From NCBI GenBank assembly GCA_003221455.1, contig QHRX01000205.1, forward strand, positions 1-48,041: a stretch of DNA of 48,041 nucleotides, written 5' to 3'. A program made the position numbers and the translations under genes. Origin of the DNA: Candidatus Rokuibacteriota bacterium (GTDB lineage Bacteria > Methylomirabilota > Methylomirabilia > Rokubacteriales > CSP1-6). The notes under the pieces are model-generated. The model was not told the DNA's origin, did not search any database, and worked only from the letters and a program-made list of their open reading frames with translations. Positions 38,560 to 47,697 of this stretch are shown here, piece after piece; the stretch's first letter is position 1, and every line of letters begins with the position of its first letter.

Positions 38560-39558
38560 TCAGGCGGGCTCGGCGAAGAGGGCGGCGGCCGTCTGCTGGA
38601 GCATAGGGATCCCGCGGACTTCCTGGTCGAACAGCGGCACGATGGCGCGCACCTGGCCGTCGAACTTCTCGCGGATCGTGCCGAGGTGCTCCTCCTGCAT
38701 GCGCAGCCGGTTCAGAACGAATTCCGGCACCTGGCTCCCGAGCGCCTGCCGGTCCATCACCATGTTGACGATGACGCCCCCGACCGGGATGCCGAACTCG
38801 TGGAACCAGCCGATGAAGCGGGTGATCACCGCGATCGGGAGCGCCTCGGGGAGCGCGATGAAGAAGAAGGCGGTCTTGCTCGCGTCGGTCAGCAGGGCGC
38901 GCGCCTGCCCCATCCGGGCCCGGAACCCGAGCAGGTACTCGAGCAGCGGATCCTCGTCTTTTTTCTTCGTGAACGACAGCATCTCGCGGAGCGTCCGCGC
39001 CTCCTGGCGGGACTTCAGCATCTTGTCGACCCAGAGCGAGTACACCTTGGACATGCCCAGGAGGCGGCGGGCGTTGGCGGTGGGCGCCGTGTCAAAGACG
39101 TAGACGTCGTACTCCTTCTTGAGCATCATCTCGACCATGTTCTCGAACATCGCGGACTCCTCGAACGCGGGGTTCATCGTCGCCGATTCGACGAAGTCGT
39201 CCGCCTTGGTCGAGATATCGGCGAACTTCAGGAACCACTGGATCTTGTCCCGGATCTCACGCTTCGAGCGCTCGATCGTGTCCCGCGTGTCGATCTCGTA
39301 GGCCCAGAGGTGCGGCACCCCGGCGACCGGGGTGTGCTCGACGGCGACGTTCTGTCCCAGCAGGCCGGACAGGCTGTGGACGGGATTGGTCGACGCCAGG
39401 AGCGTCCGGCGCCCCTGGCCGGCGAGCCAGAGCGCCGTGGCGCCGGCCATCGCGGTCTTGCCGACGCCGCCCTTGCCGCCGAAGAAGAAGTACTGGAGCG
39501 ACGGGTGCGCGGCCACGTACCGCGCCATCGACGTGCCGATCTCGACGGCCGTCGTCAT
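38560..39558 (-). CDS. ArsA/GET3-family ATPase, copy 2
   Basis: 332 residues from ATG 39558, overlapping the stop of copy 1 (ATGA). Deviant Walker A GGKGGVGKT at residues 27-35, switch I STNPVHSLSG, switch II DTAPTAN and an ArsA-like LLGMSK helix. The Asn in STNP replaces the usual Asp of ArsA/GET3 switch I. No arsenite-binding cysteine pattern and no arsB gene are present, so arsenic transport is unlikely. It ends the cstA-small-small-ATPase-ATPase operon. Probably it forms a dimer, perhaps with copy 1, working on the small membrane proteins. Confidence 0.85.
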   Translation of the reverse strand: MTTAVEIGTSMARYVAAHPSLQYFFFGGKGGVGKTAMAGATALWLAGQGRRTLLASTNPVHSLSGLLGQNVAVEHTPVAGVPHLWAYEIDTRDTIERSKREIRDKIQWFLKFADISTKADDFVESATMNPAFEESAMFENMVEMMLKKEYDVYVFDTAPTANARRLLGMSKVYSLWVDKMLKSRQEARTLREMLSFTKKKDEDPLLEYLLGFRARMGQARALLTDASKTAFFFIALPEALPIAVITRFIGWFHEFGIPVGGVIVNMVMDRQALGSQVPEFVLNRLRMQEEHLGTIREKFDGQVRAIVPLFDQEVRGIPMLQQTAAALFAEPA

Positions 39559-40544
39559 GCCGTCGCCGTCCCGGCCGCGAAGAGGCGCTCGGCCAGCCGC
39601 TCGATCATGGGGAGGCCGGTCACGTCGCGCTCCATCTCCGGCACGTAGGCGCGGATCTCGCCGCCGAACGCGCCCTTGATCTCGGCCAGGTACTTCTCCT
39701 GCATGGCGATCCGGTTCCGGAGGAAGGGGGGGATCTGTCCCCGCCCGAGGTCGGGCGGCAGGACCCGGTTCACGATGTACCCGGAGATAGGGACGTCGAA
39801 CTTGGCGAAGAGCGCGGCCGCCTTCTGGGTGTCCAGGATGATCATCTCCTCGGGGACGACGACGAAGAAGAACGCGGTCCGCGCCCGGTCGGTCAGGATC
39901 TGCGACGAGGCGTTGATGCGCGCCTTGATGTACAGGAGCTCCTTGAGGATCTGGTCCTCCTCGGTCGCCGTCTCCCGCCGCATCGTCGCCGCGACTTGGT
40001 CGTACTGCTTCATGTCCTCTCGGAGCCGGGTGATCTTGTTGATCCACTCGTCGTAGACCTTCGCCATCGAGAGGTAGTAGAGGGCGTGGCCGAGCGGCAC
40101 CAGGTCGTAGATGTAATAGTCGTAGTCACCCTGGACGATGATGTCGACGACCGCGTCGAAGATCGCGCTCTCCTCCATCGCCGGCTCCGCCGAGGCCGCC
40201 GCGATGTAGTTGTCGATCTCCTCGGGCACCCGATCGAAGCCGTACATGTCGAGGATCTTCTTCCGGATCTCCTCCTGATAGTCCTTGATCCGGCGGTCGG
40301 CGTCCACCTCCTGGGCCCAGAGGTTCCGCACGATCGGCACCGGCCCCTTGCCGAAGATGTCCCGCTGGAAGATATCCGATAGGCTCGCCTGGGGATCGAC
40401 CGAGAACAGGAGGACGCGCTTGCCCTGGCCCGCGAGCCAGAAGGCGGTGGTCGCCGACAGCGTGGTCTTGCCCAGGCCCCCCTTGCCGCCGAACATGATG
40501 TAGCGGCGGCCCGGCTGGCTCTCGAACGCCGCCCGGAGCGACAT
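39555..40544 (-). CDS. ArsA/GET3-family ATPase, copy 1
   Basis: 329 residues from ATG 40544. Walker A GGKGGLGKT is at residues 19-27 and switch I is SVDPQASLSD. The switch II region reads YDLVPLGHA, retaining the Asp and GH of DTAPTGH but losing the first Thr. Sequence is clearly paralogous to copy 2 (for example ALLYIKARI.../LLGFRARM, TDRARTAFFFVVVPE/TDASKTAFFFIALPE). A 5-base gap separates it from the small protein upstream. Family members energise a membrane process by ATP hydrolysis; which process is unknown here. Confidence 0.85.
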   Translation of the reverse strand: MSLRAAFESQPGRRYIMFGGKGGLGKTTLSATTAFWLAGQGKRVLLFSVDPQASLSDIFQRDIFGKGPVPIVRNLWAQEVDADRRIKDYQEEIRKKILDMYGFDRVPEEIDNYIAAASAEPAMEESAIFDAVVDIIVQGDYDYYIYDLVPLGHALYYLSMAKVYDEWINKITRLREDMKQYDQVAATMRRETATEEDQILKELLYIKARINASSQILTDRARTAFFFVVVPEEMIILDTQKAAALFAKFDVPISGYIVNRVLPPDLGRGQIPPFLRNRIAMQEKYLAEIKGAFGGEIRAYVPEMERDVTGLPMIERLAERLFAAGTATA

Positions 40545-40549
40545 CGGCG

Positions 40550-40831
40550 CTACCCGAGCACGTCGGTGACGTCTCGCTCGCGGAGCATCCGGCGCTTCCA
40601 CGACGCGATCTGGGGGGTCACGTAGGGCAGGAGCCGGAGCGCGTAATAGGGGGGCAGGATCGGGATGCCGAGCAGATCGCCCATCGTGATCAGGATGAAG
40701 AGGTGCTCCATGCTCGCGCGCGTGCGCACGGCGTGGCGCGCCATCTCGTGGGAGGACATCCCGTAGACGATGTCCCTGAACACCCCCAGCACTCCGCCCC
40801 GGCGCTTCTTCGGCTCGCTGGCGTCCGCCAT
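40550..40831 (-). CDS. Small membrane-associated protein, paralogue 2
   Basis: 93 residues. It shares with the next entry the core HE.ARHA.......(hydrophobic)..GDL.G.P.LPP.YALRLLPYVTP..A.WKR. One hydrophobic segment (LFILITMGDLLGIPILPPYYALRLLPYV) may enter or cross the membrane; the ends are basic. I know no named family. Placed between its paralogue and the first ArsA-like ATPase, in the same operon. Confidence 0.75.
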   Translation of the reverse strand: MADASEPKKRRGGVLGVFRDIVYGMSSHEMARHAVRTRASMEHLFILITMGDLLGIPILPPYYALRLLPYVTPQIASWKRRMLRERDVTDVLG

Positions 40832-40861
40832 CTCTCTGGGTCCCCCCTCGCCGGCCCCCTG

Positions 40862-41158
40862 TCAGATGCCGTGTAGATCGTACTCGTCTTTTTCCCAGAA
40901 TTCCTTCCGGCGCGCCAGGTGCCGCTTCCAGGCCGCGACGTCCGGGGTCACGTACGGCAGGAGCCGAAGCGCGTAGATCGGCGGCAGCACGGGGACTCCG
41001 ATCAGGTCCCCGAGCGTGACGACCATGAAGATGGCCTCGAGCTCGTGCCGCATCTCGAGCGCGTGGCGGGCGAACTCGTGGCCGGTCAGGCCGTACACGA
41101 ACCGGGACAGGGCCTGGCGGAGGCCCGCCAGGCGCGCGCGTGCCGCCGGGCTCGTCAC
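40862..41158 (-). CDS. Small membrane-associated protein, paralogue 1
   Basis: 98 residues, GTG start 12 bases after the cstA stop with a GGGAGG ribosome-binding site. It is paralogous to the 93-residue neighbour over the whole core (GHEFARHALEMRHELEAIF..., TLGDLIGVPVLPP, YALRLLPYVTPDVAAWKRHL). The tail EFWEKDEYDLHGI is unique. It may anchor the ATPases to the membrane or to CstA. CstA of enterobacteria also has a small partner (YbdD type), but this protein does not look like YbdD. Confidence 0.75.
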   Translation of the reverse strand: MTSPAARARLAGLRQALSRFVYGLTGHEFARHALEMRHELEAIFMVVTLGDLIGVPVLPPIYALRLLPYVTPDVAAWKRHLARRKEFWEKDEYDLHGI

Positions 41159-41170
41159 GCGCCTCCCTCG

Positions 41171-42964
41171 CTAGGCGCGCGCGGTCGCCGCGTCGGCCGC
41201 CGCGGCCGGCCGCCGCCGGTACCGCTGGAACGCGCGCCAGCCGTCGAGGCCGATGAAGAGCGCCGCCACCACGAGCAGGAGCGACACGAGCACCATGAAG
41301 CCGGAGCCGACGACCGCGACGACCCGGCCCGCGGCGAGGTTCGGCTGGTAGACGTTGAAGTAGAGGTTGTAGGCGATGACGAGGATCGAGGCCACCGTGG
41401 TGACGTACATGAAGACCGCCGGCAGCCCCGCGTAGAGCCAGTTCTTCCTGGCCGAGGCGAGCCACACCGTCACCAGCAAGAGCGAGAGCGCCGCCATGAG
41501 CTGGTTGGCGCCGCCGAAGAGCTGCCAGAGGTAGATCCAGGTGCCCGTCAGCACGAGGAGGATCGCGAGCGCCACCGAGACGAACGACGCCACGTGCTGG
41601 TTGCGCACGGGCGGGATCACGTCTCCGAGCCACTCCGAGAGGGTCACCCGCATGACTCGAAACAGGAGCTGCGTCACCACGAGCACGATGACGATGAACG
41701 CGGCGAAGGCTAGCGAGACCGCGTACGAGACCGGCAGCCCGAAGACGCTGATGAAGCCGCCGAGGCCGGTGGCGAAGGCCGCGACCGGCGTCCCCTTGGC
41801 GCCGACCGAGACCGCCATCAGGGAGAGGAGCCCGAGCAGGAATTCGGCCAGCATCGAGCCGCCGCCGATCGGCAGCATGTCCGCCTCGTTCTCGATCTGG
41901 CGGGCGGTGCCGACGGCGCCGAAGAGGGCGTGCCAGCCCGAGATCGCCCCGCACGCGATCGTGACGAAGAGCATCGGCCACAGCGGCATGACTCCCGCGG
42001 GCCCCAGGGGGGGGTTCCAGCCCCTGAAGGCCGGGATCTGGAAATGCGCGACCTCGGGCCGGACCAGGGGCGCCAGCGCCGCCCCCGCCAGGCCCAAGAC
42101 CATCGACAGCGCGGTGACCCAGAAGCCCACGTAGATGACCGGCTGCGCCATCCGCCAGATCGGCAGGACCGAGCCCGCGTAGCAGAAGACGCAGATCGCG
42201 ACGGCCCAGAAGAGGAAGCTCGGCATGATGTGGGCCTCGGCGCCCTTGAAGCCCGCCAAGGTCGGGTCGAAATAGGTGACGATCGGCGCCCCGCCCGTGA
42301 GACCGTCCAGCACGGCGTTGAACGCCTTGAAGGCCCCCTCCGCCCAGTGGCCCCCCAGGATCGCGGCGAGGGTGACGCCCACCGTGAGGACCGTCGAGGA
42401 CGCGAGCCCCCGGCGCCAGCGGTAGAGCATCTGGCCCAGGAGGAGCCCCATCACGACCAGCACGATGATCCCGAAGAGCGTGGCCGGCTGTGAGATGAGC
42501 ACGCCCGCCATGATGCCCACGAAGGCGCCCCCGACCAGGAGCAGGTAGAAGAAGATGAAGACGAACAGGATCGTGCGCGAGCGGGGCGAGACCAGGCGGT
42601 GGGCGATGGCCGAGAGGCTGTTGCCCTCGTTCCGGACCGAGATGACGATCCCGCTGTAGTCGCTGGCCCAACCGATGAACGACACGCCGAGCACGAGCCA
42701 GATCATGGCGGGCAGCCAGCCCCAGAGGGTCGCGGCCACGATGGCGCCGACGATCGGGCCGGCGGCCGCGATCGACTTGAAGTGGTAGCCGAAGAGGATG
42801 TTCCGGTTCGTCGGCATGAAGTCCACGCCGTCCATGTAGAGCGTGGCCGGGGTCGCGCGCTTGGGATCGGACTGGATCACGCGGCGGTCGATCCGCCGGG
42901 CGTAGAGCGTGTACGCTAGGTATACCGTCAGGACTCCGATGACGACGGCCAGCAGCGTGTTCAT
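41171..42964 (-). CDS. cstA: Carbon starvation protein CstA (peptide/pyruvate transporter family)
   Basis: 597 residues, about sixteen membrane segments. Family motifs: RNILFGYHFKSIAAAGPIVGAI, FIGWASDYSGIVISVRNEG, GAISGWHALFGAVGTARQIENE and LFGGANQLMAALSLLL. CstA-type proteins take up peptides or pyruvate under nutrient stress. The ATG at 42964 has a GGGAGGACAG ribosome-binding site. A TATAAG element at 43035-43030 and a 9-bp inverted repeat just upstream may be its control region. Four co-directional genes follow it without room for a promoter. Confidence 0.93.
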   Translation of the reverse strand: MNTLLAVVIGVLTVYLAYTLYARRIDRRVIQSDPKRATPATLYMDGVDFMPTNRNILFGYHFKSIAAAGPIVGAIVAATLWGWLPAMIWLVLGVSFIGWASDYSGIVISVRNEGNSLSAIAHRLVSPRSRTILFVFIFFYLLLVGGAFVGIMAGVLISQPATLFGIIVLVVMGLLLGQMLYRWRRGLASSTVLTVGVTLAAILGGHWAEGAFKAFNAVLDGLTGGAPIVTYFDPTLAGFKGAEAHIMPSFLFWAVAICVFCYAGSVLPIWRMAQPVIYVGFWVTALSMVLGLAGAALAPLVRPEVAHFQIPAFRGWNPPLGPAGVMPLWPMLFVTIACGAISGWHALFGAVGTARQIENEADMLPIGGGSMLAEFLLGLLSLMAVSVGAKGTPVAAFATGLGGFISVFGLPVSYAVSLAFAAFIVIVLVVTQLLFRVMRVTLSEWLGDVIPPVRNQHVASFVSVALAILLVLTGTWIYLWQLFGGANQLMAALSLLLVTVWLASARKNWLYAGLPAVFMYVTTVASILVIAYNLYFNVYQPNLAAGRVVAVVGSGFMVLVSLLLVVAALFIGLDGWRAFQRYRRRPAAAADAATARA

Positions 42965-43463: not shown

Positions 43464-44798
43464 TCAGACCCGGGCCGGCCGGGCCTCCTCGACCCAGATG
43501 CTGGTCTTGCGCGTCTCAGGCATCAGAAACAGGGCGAGCACGAACATGATCGCCGGCAGCCCAATGGGGTATGCCAGTGCCCAGCCGAGGCTCCCCGTAG
43601 ACAGATACGCCGAGGTCGTGATGATCGGCACGAGGCCGCCGCCCCAACCGTTGCCGATGTGATACGCCACCGACACCGAGGTATAGCGGATGCGTCCGGG
43701 GAAGAATTCCGCCAAGAACGCGGCGATCGGGCCATAGGTCATGCCCACGTAGTTGACCAGGATCACGACGATGAGGACTGACATCGCGTAGTTCAGGTTC
43801 GTCGGATCGGCGTAGGTGCCGAGGGCGACGTAGAGCGGGTAGTAGGTGATGGACGCGAGGGCCATTCCGGTCAGGATGATCGGCTTCCGGCCGATCTTGT
43901 CCGACAACCAGCCCCAGAAGATCAGCGTTGGGGTGGCGATCAAGAGCGCGAGGCCGACGATGAAGCTCGAGGTCAGCACGTCGACCTTCTTGACCGTCTG
44001 CAGGAAGTAGAGCGCCCAGAACTGGCCGCTGTACCAGACACATCCTTGCCCCAGCACGACGACACTGGCGATCAGCACGTACCGGATGTTCCGGCTCAGA
44101 AACGCCTCGCGCCAGGGATTGGTCGCCGTCCGCCCCTTCGCCTTGATCTCCTGGAAGATCGGCGTTTCCTGGAGCGAGAGCCGGATGTAGATCGCGATCG
44201 CCACCAGCAGGAGCGAGATGATGAACGGGAGCCGCCAGCCCCAGTCGTTGAAGGCCTCCTGGCCTAGGTAGCGCCGGATCCCGATGATGGTGGCGAGCGA
44301 GACCACGATGCCGAGGGTGGGCGACGTTTGGAGCCAGCCGGTGTAATACCCCCGCTTCTCGTCCGCGATGTGCTCTGCGACGTAGGTGATGGCACCGCCG
44401 TACTCGCCGCCGAGGCAGAGCCCCTGGATCAGCCGGAGGGCGAAGAGGAGGACCGCCGCCGCGAGGCCGATGCTGGCGTAGGAGGGAATGAATCCAATGA
44501 GGGCGGTCGAAATCCCCATGCCGCTCAGCGTGACGAGGAATGTGTACTTTCGACCAACCCTGTCGCCGAGCCAGCCGAACACAAACGCCCCCAGGGGCCG
44601 GATCAGGAAACCGACCGAGAAGAGCGCCACGGTGCTGAGGAAGGCCGCGACCGGGTGGGATTTTTCGAAGAACTTGACCGCGAGGATCGAGGCCAGGCTT
44701 CCGAAGATGTAGAAGTCGTACCACTCAATCACGTTCCCAACCGCCGCGGCGATAACGACACGGCGAAGTTCTTTGAGCGAGAGATGAGGCGCCGGCAT
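43464..44798 (-). CDS. MFS transporter, metabolite:H+ symporter (MHS) family
   Basis: 444 residues from ATG 44798 with a GGAGGGAG ribosome-binding site; the longer open frame upstream is a shadow. VGNVIEWYDFYIFGSLA at the start, FGWLGDRVGRKYTFLVTLSGMG after helix 2 and RLIQGLCLGGEYGGAITYVAEH are the MHS (ShiA/ProP/KgtP) signatures; twelve membrane helices are visible. It should import an organic acid or osmolyte with protons. Location upstream of the acetate genes hints at a carboxylate, but this is not certain. Confidence 0.9.
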   Translation of the reverse strand: MPAPHLSLKELRRVVIAAAVGNVIEWYDFYIFGSLASILAVKFFEKSHPVAAFLSTVALFSVGFLIRPLGAFVFGWLGDRVGRKYTFLVTLSGMGISTALIGFIPSYASIGLAAAVLLFALRLIQGLCLGGEYGGAITYVAEHIADEKRGYYTGWLQTSPTLGIVVSLATIIGIRRYLGQEAFNDWGWRLPFIISLLLVAIAIYIRLSLQETPIFQEIKAKGRTATNPWREAFLSRNIRYVLIASVVVLGQGCVWYSGQFWALYFLQTVKKVDVLTSSFIVGLALLIATPTLIFWGWLSDKIGRKPIILTGMALASITYYPLYVALGTYADPTNLNYAMSVLIVVILVNYVGMTYGPIAAFLAEFFPGRIRYTSVSVAYHIGNGWGGGLVPIITTSAYLSTGSLGWALAYPIGLPAIMFVLALFLMPETRKTSIWVEEARPARV

Positions 44799-45446
44799 AG
44801 CTCCCTCCAGTTGGTAGTGGTCTACGACTCGGCCTGCGTGGGAACCCTGACGGCCCCGTCCCGGGCCGCGAGAGCGCCCTCGCCTGAGGTTTCGGCGCTC
44901 GGGAACGGCCGGAGCCCACGGCCGCGGCGCCCGGCGACCGTTCCACAGACCGGCCACCGCGCGCGCAGCGGAGCGCAGAGGAGGTCATCGAGCCTGGTTG
45001 CGTGCAGGCAAACCGCGTTCCGCCCGGCCCCGCCCAGACCGAGTCCGGGCAGGTCGAGGACCGGGGCCGGGCTGCGCCGCACCTGCTCTCGGAGTCCATC
45101 CATCGGGTGATACCCTCCACCCCACCCTGGAGGCCCAGAAACCAGCCTGTCGGCGAAGTTGAGCGATTATGCCCTTGCCCATTCGGCGGGCAAAGCGAAA
45201 TGTGGGATCAGGAGCGACCGGAGGGCTCCCGCCGTCGTTCGTCGCCCGATGTGAGCGGGCGGACCGCCCCCGGGAGGGAACCGGTGCGGGGGCTGGCGGC
45301 ACGGGGAGGACGGCACGGGACCGGCGGGTGGCCGCCCGGGTGGCTCTGCCGAGGAGACTCCCCTCGGGCGCCGAGCGCCGCCCGGCGCGGTTCGAGGGTC
45401 GGGAGCGCTCGCCGGCGCGGTTCGCGGAGGACCCTCCGGCCCCCCG
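44799..45446. other. Long intergenic region (~650 bases)
   Basis: No well-supported gene. On the reverse strand a possible promoter (TTTGCC, 17 bases, CATAAT at about 45171-45166) precedes an ORF from ATG 45103 to 44822 (93 residues, MDGLREQVRRSPAPVL...), which has no recognisable motif and no Shine-Dalgarno site; I do not call it. The rest is arginine/proline-rich shadow frames. Confidence 0.4.
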
Positions 45447-47372
45447 CTACTCTTGCTCCTCGTACTTCGCCTTGAGGCTGGCGACCACGGCCGGATCGGC
45501 GAGGGTGGTGGTGTCGCCGAGGGCGCGCCCCTCGGCGATGTCGCGGAGGAGCCGGCGCATGATCTTGCCGCTGCGCGTCTTCGGGAGGTCGGCGGAAAAG
45601 ATGATGTCATCGGGGCGGGCGAGGGCGCCGATCTTCTTCACCACGTGCGCCTTCAGTTCGTCGCCAAGCTCGAGGCTCGTGGCCACCCCCTCCTTGACCG
45701 TCACGAAGGCGGCGAGGGCCTGGCCTTTGATCTCGTGACTCCGGCCGATGACGGCCGACTCCGCGACGAGCGGGTGGTCGACGAGCGCCGACTCGACCTC
45801 CATCGTCGAGACACGGTGCCCCGACACGTTGATGACGTCATCGACGCGGCCGAGGAGCCAGAAGTACCCGTCCTCGTCGAGCTTGGCGCCGTCGCCGGTG
45901 AAGTAGATGTCCTTGTAGCGGCTCCAGTATTGCTTCACGTACCGCTCCGGATCGCCCCAAATCCCCCGGAGCATGCCGGGCCACGGCTGGCGCAGGACCA
46001 GGTAGCCGGCCTTGGCGGGCTTGCCGTGATCGTCGAGCACGGCGGCGTCGACGCCCGGGAACGGCTTCGTCGCCGAGCCCGGCTTGCATACCGTGACACC
46101 GGGCAGCGGCGTGATCAGGATGTGGCCGGTCTCGGTCTGCCACCAGGTGTCCACGACGGGGCAGCGGCCGCCACCGATCACCCTCCAATACCAGACCCAC
46201 GCCTCGGGGTTGATCGGCTCTCCGACGGAGCCGAGGAGACGGAGGCTCGAGAGGTCGCACTGCTCAGGATACTTCTCGCCCCACCGCATGAACGTGCGGA
46301 TGGCGGTCGGCGCCGTGTAGAGGATGCTGACGCCGTGCTTCTCGACGATGCGCCAGAACCGGTCCTTGTCGGGCCAGTCCGGCGTCCCCTCGTACATCAC
46401 CGAGGTGGCGCCGTTGGCGAGGGGTCCGTAGACCACGTAGGAGTGGCCCGTGACCCAGCCGACGTCGGCCGTGCACCAGAAGGTGTCGCCCTCGTGGAGG
46501 TCGAAGATGTACCGCGTCGTGGCCGTCACCCCGGTCAGGTACCCGCCGGTCGTATGGATGATGCCCTTCGGCTTGCCGGTCGACCCCGAGGTGTAGAGGA
46601 GGTAGAGGAGGTCCTCGGCGTCCATCGGCTCCGGCTTGCAGTACGCCGCGGCCTCCTTGACGAACTCGTCCCACCAGACGTCGCGCCCGCGCTGCATCGG
46701 CACGTCCTGTCCCGTGCGCTTGAGCACGACCACGGTCTTGACGGTGGGGCACTCCAGAAGCGCCTCGTCCGCGTTCTTCTTGAGCGGGACGACCCCACCC
46801 CGGCGGTACCCACCGTCCGCCGTGACCAGGACCGTCGACTCGGAGTCGCGGATTCGCTCGCGAAGGGCGTCGGGCGAGAATCCGCCGAAGACCACGTTGT
46901 GGGGGGCACCGATGCGGGTGCACGCGAGCATCGCGATCGCCGCCTCCGGCACCATCGGCAGGTAGATCGTGACCCGGGCACCCTTCCGCACCCCCTGCTG
47001 CCGGAGCGCCGCCGCGAACCGGTTGACCTCGCGGTAGAGGTCCCAGTAGGTCAAGGTCCGCGTGTCCCCGGGCTCGCCCTCCCAGATGAGGGCGGCCTTG
47101 GTGCGGCGGGGCCCCGCCACGTGGCGGTCGAGGCAGTTATAGGAGACGTTCAGCTTGCCGCCGACGAACCACTTGGCGTACGGCGGCTTCCACTCGAGCG
47201 CCTTCCGCCACGGCTTGAACCAGTCGAGCGCCCTCGCCTCCTTCTCCCAGAAGCGCACGGGGTTCGTGGCGTCCTTGTAGATCCGCGGCTGGGCCACCGC
47301 GTGCGCGGCGAAGGCCTTCGGGGGCTTGAAGGTCCGTTTCTCCTTGAGCAGCACTTCGATGGGGTTGGCCAT
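45447..47372 (-). CDS. acs: Acetyl-CoA synthetase (AMP-forming)
   Basis: 641 residues, full family length. It activates acetate with ATP and CoA. Motifs: the N-terminal [18 protein letters not shown], adenylation [33 protein letters not shown] and the C-terminal [11 protein letters not shown] whose lysine is the known acetylation control site in Acs enzymes. ATG 47372 is preceded by GAGGAACGGTA. It follows the Virulence_fact protein by 40 bases and malic enzyme, pointing to acetate and C4-acid metabolism. Confidence 0.95.
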
Positions 47373-47412
47373 TACCGTTCCTCTGGTGGCCGCGCGCCCG
47401 GGGCCGCGCCGG

Positions 47413-47697
47413 TCACCGGCTGCCGAGATAGCGGTCCACGTACTCGCCGAACAGGGCCTCGAGCTCGGCCGCGACCGCTTCCGCGACCGGCTCTGGGCCG
47501 CCCGGGCGCTCCCGCTCCGGGTCGCCGTTCCATCCATCCAGGTACGCCTCGCTCTCCGAGGCGCCCTCGCGCATCGCTACCGCGTCGATCAGATCCTGGA
47601 ATCGCTGCGAGAGCGGACGCCGGACCGCCCGCTCGGCGTCCCACGCCTCTACGAGCGACGGGATGTCCCTCCACCGAACGACCCGGAAGCGCGCCAC
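47413..47697 (-). CDS. Virulence_fact (PF13769-type) family protein
   Basis: 94 residues, GTG start. The sequence opens [19 protein letters not shown] and continues [30 protein letters not shown], the recognisable core of the small family annotated 'virulence factor' in Pfam; the real biochemical role is not established. It is soluble and acidic at its end. Between malE-type malic enzyme and acs, it is probably co-transcribed with both (gaps of about 40 bases). Confidence 0.75.

Follow-up and report, generated by a model that had tools for sequence, protein, structure and literature searches.

CstA proteins form a widespread family of carbon-starvation and pyruvate transporters. In Escherichia coli, CstA is a pyruvate importer that depends for uptake on YbdD, an adjacent 65-residue protein, and no ArsA-type subunit has been reported for this system (PMC5847655). 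Operons of the cstA-cstX-arsA type were described in 2010 by Castillo & Saier, who gave the name CstX to a protein of ~90 residues and found cstA accompanied by an arsA homologue in 26 cases, with cstX also present in 24 of them (PMC2963123). Adjacent arsA pairs were found in Pyrobaculum arsenaticum and Symbiobacterium thermophilum, and two cstX genes in P. arsenaticum and Thermococcus kodakarensis. In these systems, the protein trees co-evolve, and CstX was proposed to couple hydrolysis by ArsA to CstA. Regarding the switch I motif of the ATPases, the same paper notes only that single-domain proteins can have N in place of D (PMC2963123). We found no later work on cstA-cstX-arsA in the open literature, most subscription papers being outside the scope of our search.

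The switch-I Asp positions the water for hydrolysis (PMC10248533). In GET3, D57 is needed for hydrolysis and a D57N substitution traps the ATP state (PMC12506534).

Results

Five genes form a compact cstA operon

The window, i.e. the whole stretch of 48,041 nucleotides that was analyzed, contains one tight minus-strand operon composed of cstA, two genes for paralogous small proteins, and two genes for paralogous ArsA/GET3-fold ATPases. The gene coordinates confirm the spacing given by the sequence-only reading, which is 12, 30, and 5 bases in the order from cstA to ATPase B, with a 4-base overlap at the last junction, and the motifs that it cited for the small proteins and the ATPases are found in the translations. 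The first gene, cstA (42964-41171, minus strand), encodes a 597-aa CstA-family transporter (PF02554, E 2.8e-104) and is the sole CstA gene detected in the 4.4 Mb assembly. It is followed on the same strand by cstX1 (41158-40862, 98 aa, GTG start) and cstX2 (40831-40550, 93 aa), which adjoins the gene for ATPase A (40544-39555, 329 aa). The last gene encodes ATPase B (39558-38560, minus strand, 332 aa). Both ATPases contain, according to Pfam, a single ArsA domain (PF02374, E 2.4e-67 for A and 8.3e-63 for B), with the switch motifs SVDPQAS and DLVPLGH in A, and STNPVHS and DTAPTAN in B. No arsR/arsB/arsD-like gene was seen between or directly beside the five genes. Upstream of cstA and on the same strand lie genes for an MFS (MHS-like) transporter (43464-44957, minus strand) and an acetyl-CoA synthetase-like protein, acs (45447-47537, minus strand). 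Because they are not kept beside other cstA copies, these two genes were ruled out as conserved neighbors.

The five genes are a member of a known bacterial module, and what is new is the constant ATPase pair with differently altered active sites. They had been read from the sequence as an uncharacterized module tied to, and perhaps energizing, CstA. Biochemically, uncharacterized is the right word. Since both the cluster and the idea that ArsA energizes CstA are found in PMC2963123, the main inference of that reading is a published hypothesis, and the small proteins appear to correspond to a named family, CstX, whose role has been proposed (PMC2963123). Of the refuting condition that the reading had set for the small proteins, a known family whose role is defined, only the first half thus applies.

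The operon recurs in several phyla with a constant gene order

Scanning a GTDB contig collection yielded 456 confirmed relatives of the small protein encoded by cstX2, from which 80 loci were kept. Further loci came from genomes of the window's relatives, the nearest of which are Rokubacteria/Methylomirabilota, from Chloroflexota, and from the phylum to which a Desulfomonilaceae genome belongs. CstX operons of archaea and actinobacteria lie outside these scans. The survey comprises 96 distinct loci with both ATPases, distributed over several phyla. Recurrence beyond the source genome, which the sequence-only reading had set beforehand as decisive for its case, is therefore clear. The gene order is A then B in 96/96 loci. 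cstA lies directly upstream in 85 of these, nearby elsewhere in 5, and is absent from the stretch in 6. In nine genomes, mostly ones in which the pair does not adjoin cstA on the surveyed stretch, cstA was present in all nine. At four loci (L282, L286, L296, and L300), cstA is near the CstX-A-B genes on the opposite strand.

Because the loci were partly selected for both A and B motifs, the count of 96 alone is no proof of obligate pairing, which rests on a sample of 201 Chloroflexota genomes that was unselected for these motifs. Of the 201 genomes, 25 encode ATPase A and 26 encode ATPase B, with 25 encoding both (p 5e-31), and CstX and CstA are found in 26 and 28 genomes, respectively, 25 having both (p 1.6e-27), although both p-values overstate independence because the genomes are related. 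The one genome with B but no A or CstA (G069) has B close to a contig start, and two others (G171 and G203) are likewise cut by contig ends. Two genomes (G155 and G236) have CstA without the module. That CstA is almost never found without the ATPase module in this sample suggests that its mechanism there probably differs from that in E. coli. YbdD (PF04328) was absent from 18/18 Chloroflexota genomes searched. A role for CstX as a replacement for YbdD is not established by this, since YbdD is also missing from the CstA-only genomes G155 and G236.

The two ATPases have apparently complementary switch substitutions

ATPases A and B, which share 37% identity, are both clear members of the ArsA/GET3/TRC40 family, and the closest solved structure to A is an archaeal GET3 (3ug6, E 5.2e-57). 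P-loops are intact in all A and B sequences of the survey. Switch I has the catalytic Asp of GET3 in 108/108 A sequences and an Asn, equivalent to GET3 D57N, in 97/97 B sequences, which are non-identical sequences, some of them from one genome. Because the A/B labels were themselves assigned via this motif, independent support for two families comes from the phylogeny and from the absence, among the surveyed loci, of any third combination, such as an operon of this kind in which both ATPases have the Asp. In a tree of 54 sequences, the A sequences and the B sequences each form a single clade, and these clades are sisters with 99/95 support, although the outgroup position is unsure because several of its branches are long. 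This sister relationship of two monophyletic families indicates one old duplication. Over 82 loci, the distances for A and B correlate with each other (r 0.87) more closely than those for any other pair, which is mostly shared ancestry.

Switch II differs as well. It reads DLVPLGH in A, or DMPPFGH in three deep-branching loci, and DTAPTAN in B, or DTAAVAN in deep-branching loci. The motifs of ATPase A are invariant among close relatives. Stand-alone ArsA/GET3 relatives in two of the pair-carrying genomes keep both switch motifs (SDPTPS and DTAPAGHT), and five CstA operons that encode only one ATPase also retain the switch-I Asp. At the CstA loci L287, L288, L290, L291, and L292, the single ArsA-type ATPase is of a separate lineage (GKGGVGKS, SLDPAHN/SIDPAHN), and the CstX match is very weak at most. 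Apparently, the active sites of A and B have decayed in different, complementary ways, as if functional only together.

The CxxC motif by which GET3/TRC40 binds zinc at the dimer interface occurs in 0/205 A and B sequences, and 76/108 A and 58/97 B sequences are cysteine-free. For this locus, the sequence-only reading had remarked on the absence of arsB and of an arsenite-type cysteine pattern. Get3d proteins also do not contain CxxC (PMC10248533). The region corresponding to the client-binding insert has a mean hydropathy of about -0.9 in A and -0.8 in B, versus -0.4 in five ArsA/GET3 relatives.

CstX proteins vary in number beside a constant ATPase pair

cstX1 and cstX2 encode products that are 47% identical, and neither has a match in Pfam. 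They score 26.8 and 35.1 bits against the NCBIfam model NF041419 ("cory-CC-star"), whose cut-off is 80 bits; by sequence, they appear to be related to this family but are below membership. In size and position, they fit the description of CstX from 2010, a protein of ~90 residues with one predicted membrane segment. The CstX core, GD..G.P.LPP.Y..RL.P, is invariant across 53 aligned rows. The original description as small membrane proteins stands for small and paralogous, but membrane is insecure, since the best 19-residue hydropathy windows are borderline (2.0 for the first protein and 1.6 for the second) and a conserved Asp sits inside the core.

A cstX2-type copy, adjoining ATPase A, is present in every one of the 96 loci counted, whereas the cstX1-type copy is restricted to some lineages, so that one or two CstX are encoded upstream of the pair. 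A third copy directly after ATPase B is found in Chloroflexota loci L098, L119, L127, L132, and L194-L196. In total, there is one CstX in 36/96 loci, two in 53/96, and three in 7/96, beside ATPases that are always exactly two. Since the number of CstX varies in this way, the rule of one small anchor per ATPase that the sequence-only reading had drawn from this locus is unsupported.

AlphaFold models CstX only poorly (pLDDT 57). We also modeled a CstX-ATPase A read-through translation from one locus (L126), which is an artificial device and no real protein. Its ATPase part is predicted to adopt the GET3 fold, and no confident contact was seen at the CstX-ATPase A interface. CstX-like proteins with a similar core are also found on their own, at L279 (6477-6740), L272 (6284-6583), L284, and L281, all from the phylum sample of G272, and at L047 (12932-13219), L048, and L049. 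None of them is directly flanked by an ArsA ATPase pair, and L047 is the only one of these stretches that contains cstA. Some of these proteins adjoin housekeeping genes, and they look like separate, diverged paralogues. Searching plasmids for CstX gave no match, and viral contigs gave pattern matches but zero confirmed relatives.

Discussion

Gene order, the strict pairing of A with B, their switch residues, the ancient duplication, and the co-occurrence with CstA are the sequence-based observations from which we infer a heterodimer, unequal catalysis, CstX docking, and an effect on CstA. The reading that we favor, with modest confidence, is that A pairs obligately with B in a heterodimer of GET3/ArsA fold, in which one ATP site is competent and the other degenerate, and which would act on CstA through CstX. 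The operon would thus encode a CstA-family transporter together with a dedicated ATP-driven accessory complex. Both P-loops keep the intersubunit lysine, so that two ATPs could be sandwiched between the subunits. The A site alone keeps the catalytic switch-I Asp, whereas the B site, with its Asn, would bind ATP and hydrolyze it poorly. A single competent hydrolysis event might then open and close the A:B dimer, and CstX, pictured as a small helical protein that sits at the face of the membrane, would pass this movement to CstA, whose transport activity or assembly would become ATP-dependent. The proposal of heterodimers made from the sequence is therefore one that we also judge probable, apart from its per-ATPase anchor stoichiometry. 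Counting against a dead B site is the fact that substituted switches can stay active, since hydrolysis persists in NosGet3d, which has a Glu in switch I (PMC10248533).

The same operon and co-occurrence data would fit equally an ArsAB-like primary pump, in which the ATPases energize CstA directly, ATP hydrolysis moves the substrate, and CstX is the coupling subunit, as proposed by Castillo & Saier on the basis of co-evolving trees (PMC2963123). We find this rather unlikely, because one of the two sites seems dead, E. coli CstA works with only the 65-residue YbdD (PMC5847655), and GET3-type hydrolysis is slow, at ~1 per minute for the yeast enzyme (PMC10248533). With such a turnover, which argues against bulk energization, a role as a switch or in assembly is no less likely than one as a pump.

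An assembly role could also be played outside the working transporter, if the pair were a GET3-like chaperone that delivers or assembles hydrophobic proteins, namely CstX or CstA itself, into the membrane. The modeled fold of ATPase A appears to match best GET3/TRC40 structures, client complexes included. This alternative is nevertheless unlikely in our view, considering that a general targeting factor would not be expected to serve a single transporter, and that a role in general tail-anchor targeting is disfavored by the missing CxxC and by an insert region whose polarity exceeds that of archaeal GET3.

That A and B are two separate homodimers with different jobs would agree with the complete P-loop in each and with homodimers being usual in GET3. 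It is made distinctly improbable by the complementary losses, by the strict gene order and 4-base overlap, which favor equal joint production, and by the fact that B was never found without A except in G069, at the contig start. Finally, an arsenite efflux module has little beyond the Pfam name ArsA to recommend it and next to no chance of being correct, since the ATPases are single-domain proteins with few cysteines and no CxxC, the permease is CstA, and the published CstA operons are without arsenic genes (PMC2963123); an arsenic function was rejected on the cysteine and CxxC counts.

If the asymmetric heterodimer is correct, a broader picture can be put forward tentatively, and we would hold it with less than even confidence. 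In many environmental phyla, an asymmetric heterodimer of GET3 fold would control CstA, one of its subunits being a pseudo-ATPase that naturally has the equivalent of D57N. Among SIMIBI proteins, it would be the counterpart of those heterodimeric ABC transporters in which one site is degenerate, and it would gate or energize a secondary transporter. The strict complementary pair offers a clean way to test whether a transporter is driven or gated by ATPases of the GET3/ArsA fold, as was proposed in 2010.

How does this module compare with known systems? The ArsA ATPase of arsenite pumps consists of two fused ATPase domains with conserved metalloid-binding cysteines, whereas A and B are single-domain proteins, most of them without any cysteine. 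The E. coli CstA-YbdD system likewise combines CstA with an adjacent small protein (PMC5847655), but YbdD (PF04328) is of a different family from CstX and there is no ATPase. BagA/BagB of mycobacteria (Rv3679/Rv3680) are, like A and B, two paralogous ArsA-like ATPases of one operon, and they are present jointly in a crystal entry (6bs3, chains A and B), which provides a solved structure for two such paralogues of a single genome. They are distant in sequence, and no CstA or CstX is known to us alongside them. With GET3/TRC40 (3ug6, 3zq6), the module shares the fold and the P-loop, ATPase A being 36-37% identical to Methanocaldococcus jannaschii GET3 in structural alignment, but it differs by the missing CxxC, the polar insert region, the presence of two diverged subunits, and the tie to a transporter. 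Closest are the operons of Castillo & Saier, which have the same composition of CstA, a CstX of ~90 residues, and single-domain ArsA homologues of ~330 residues. To that description, the present analysis adds an Asn that distinguishes one member of a strict pair from the other, complementary changes in switch II, and a variable number of CstX beside a constant pair of ATPases.
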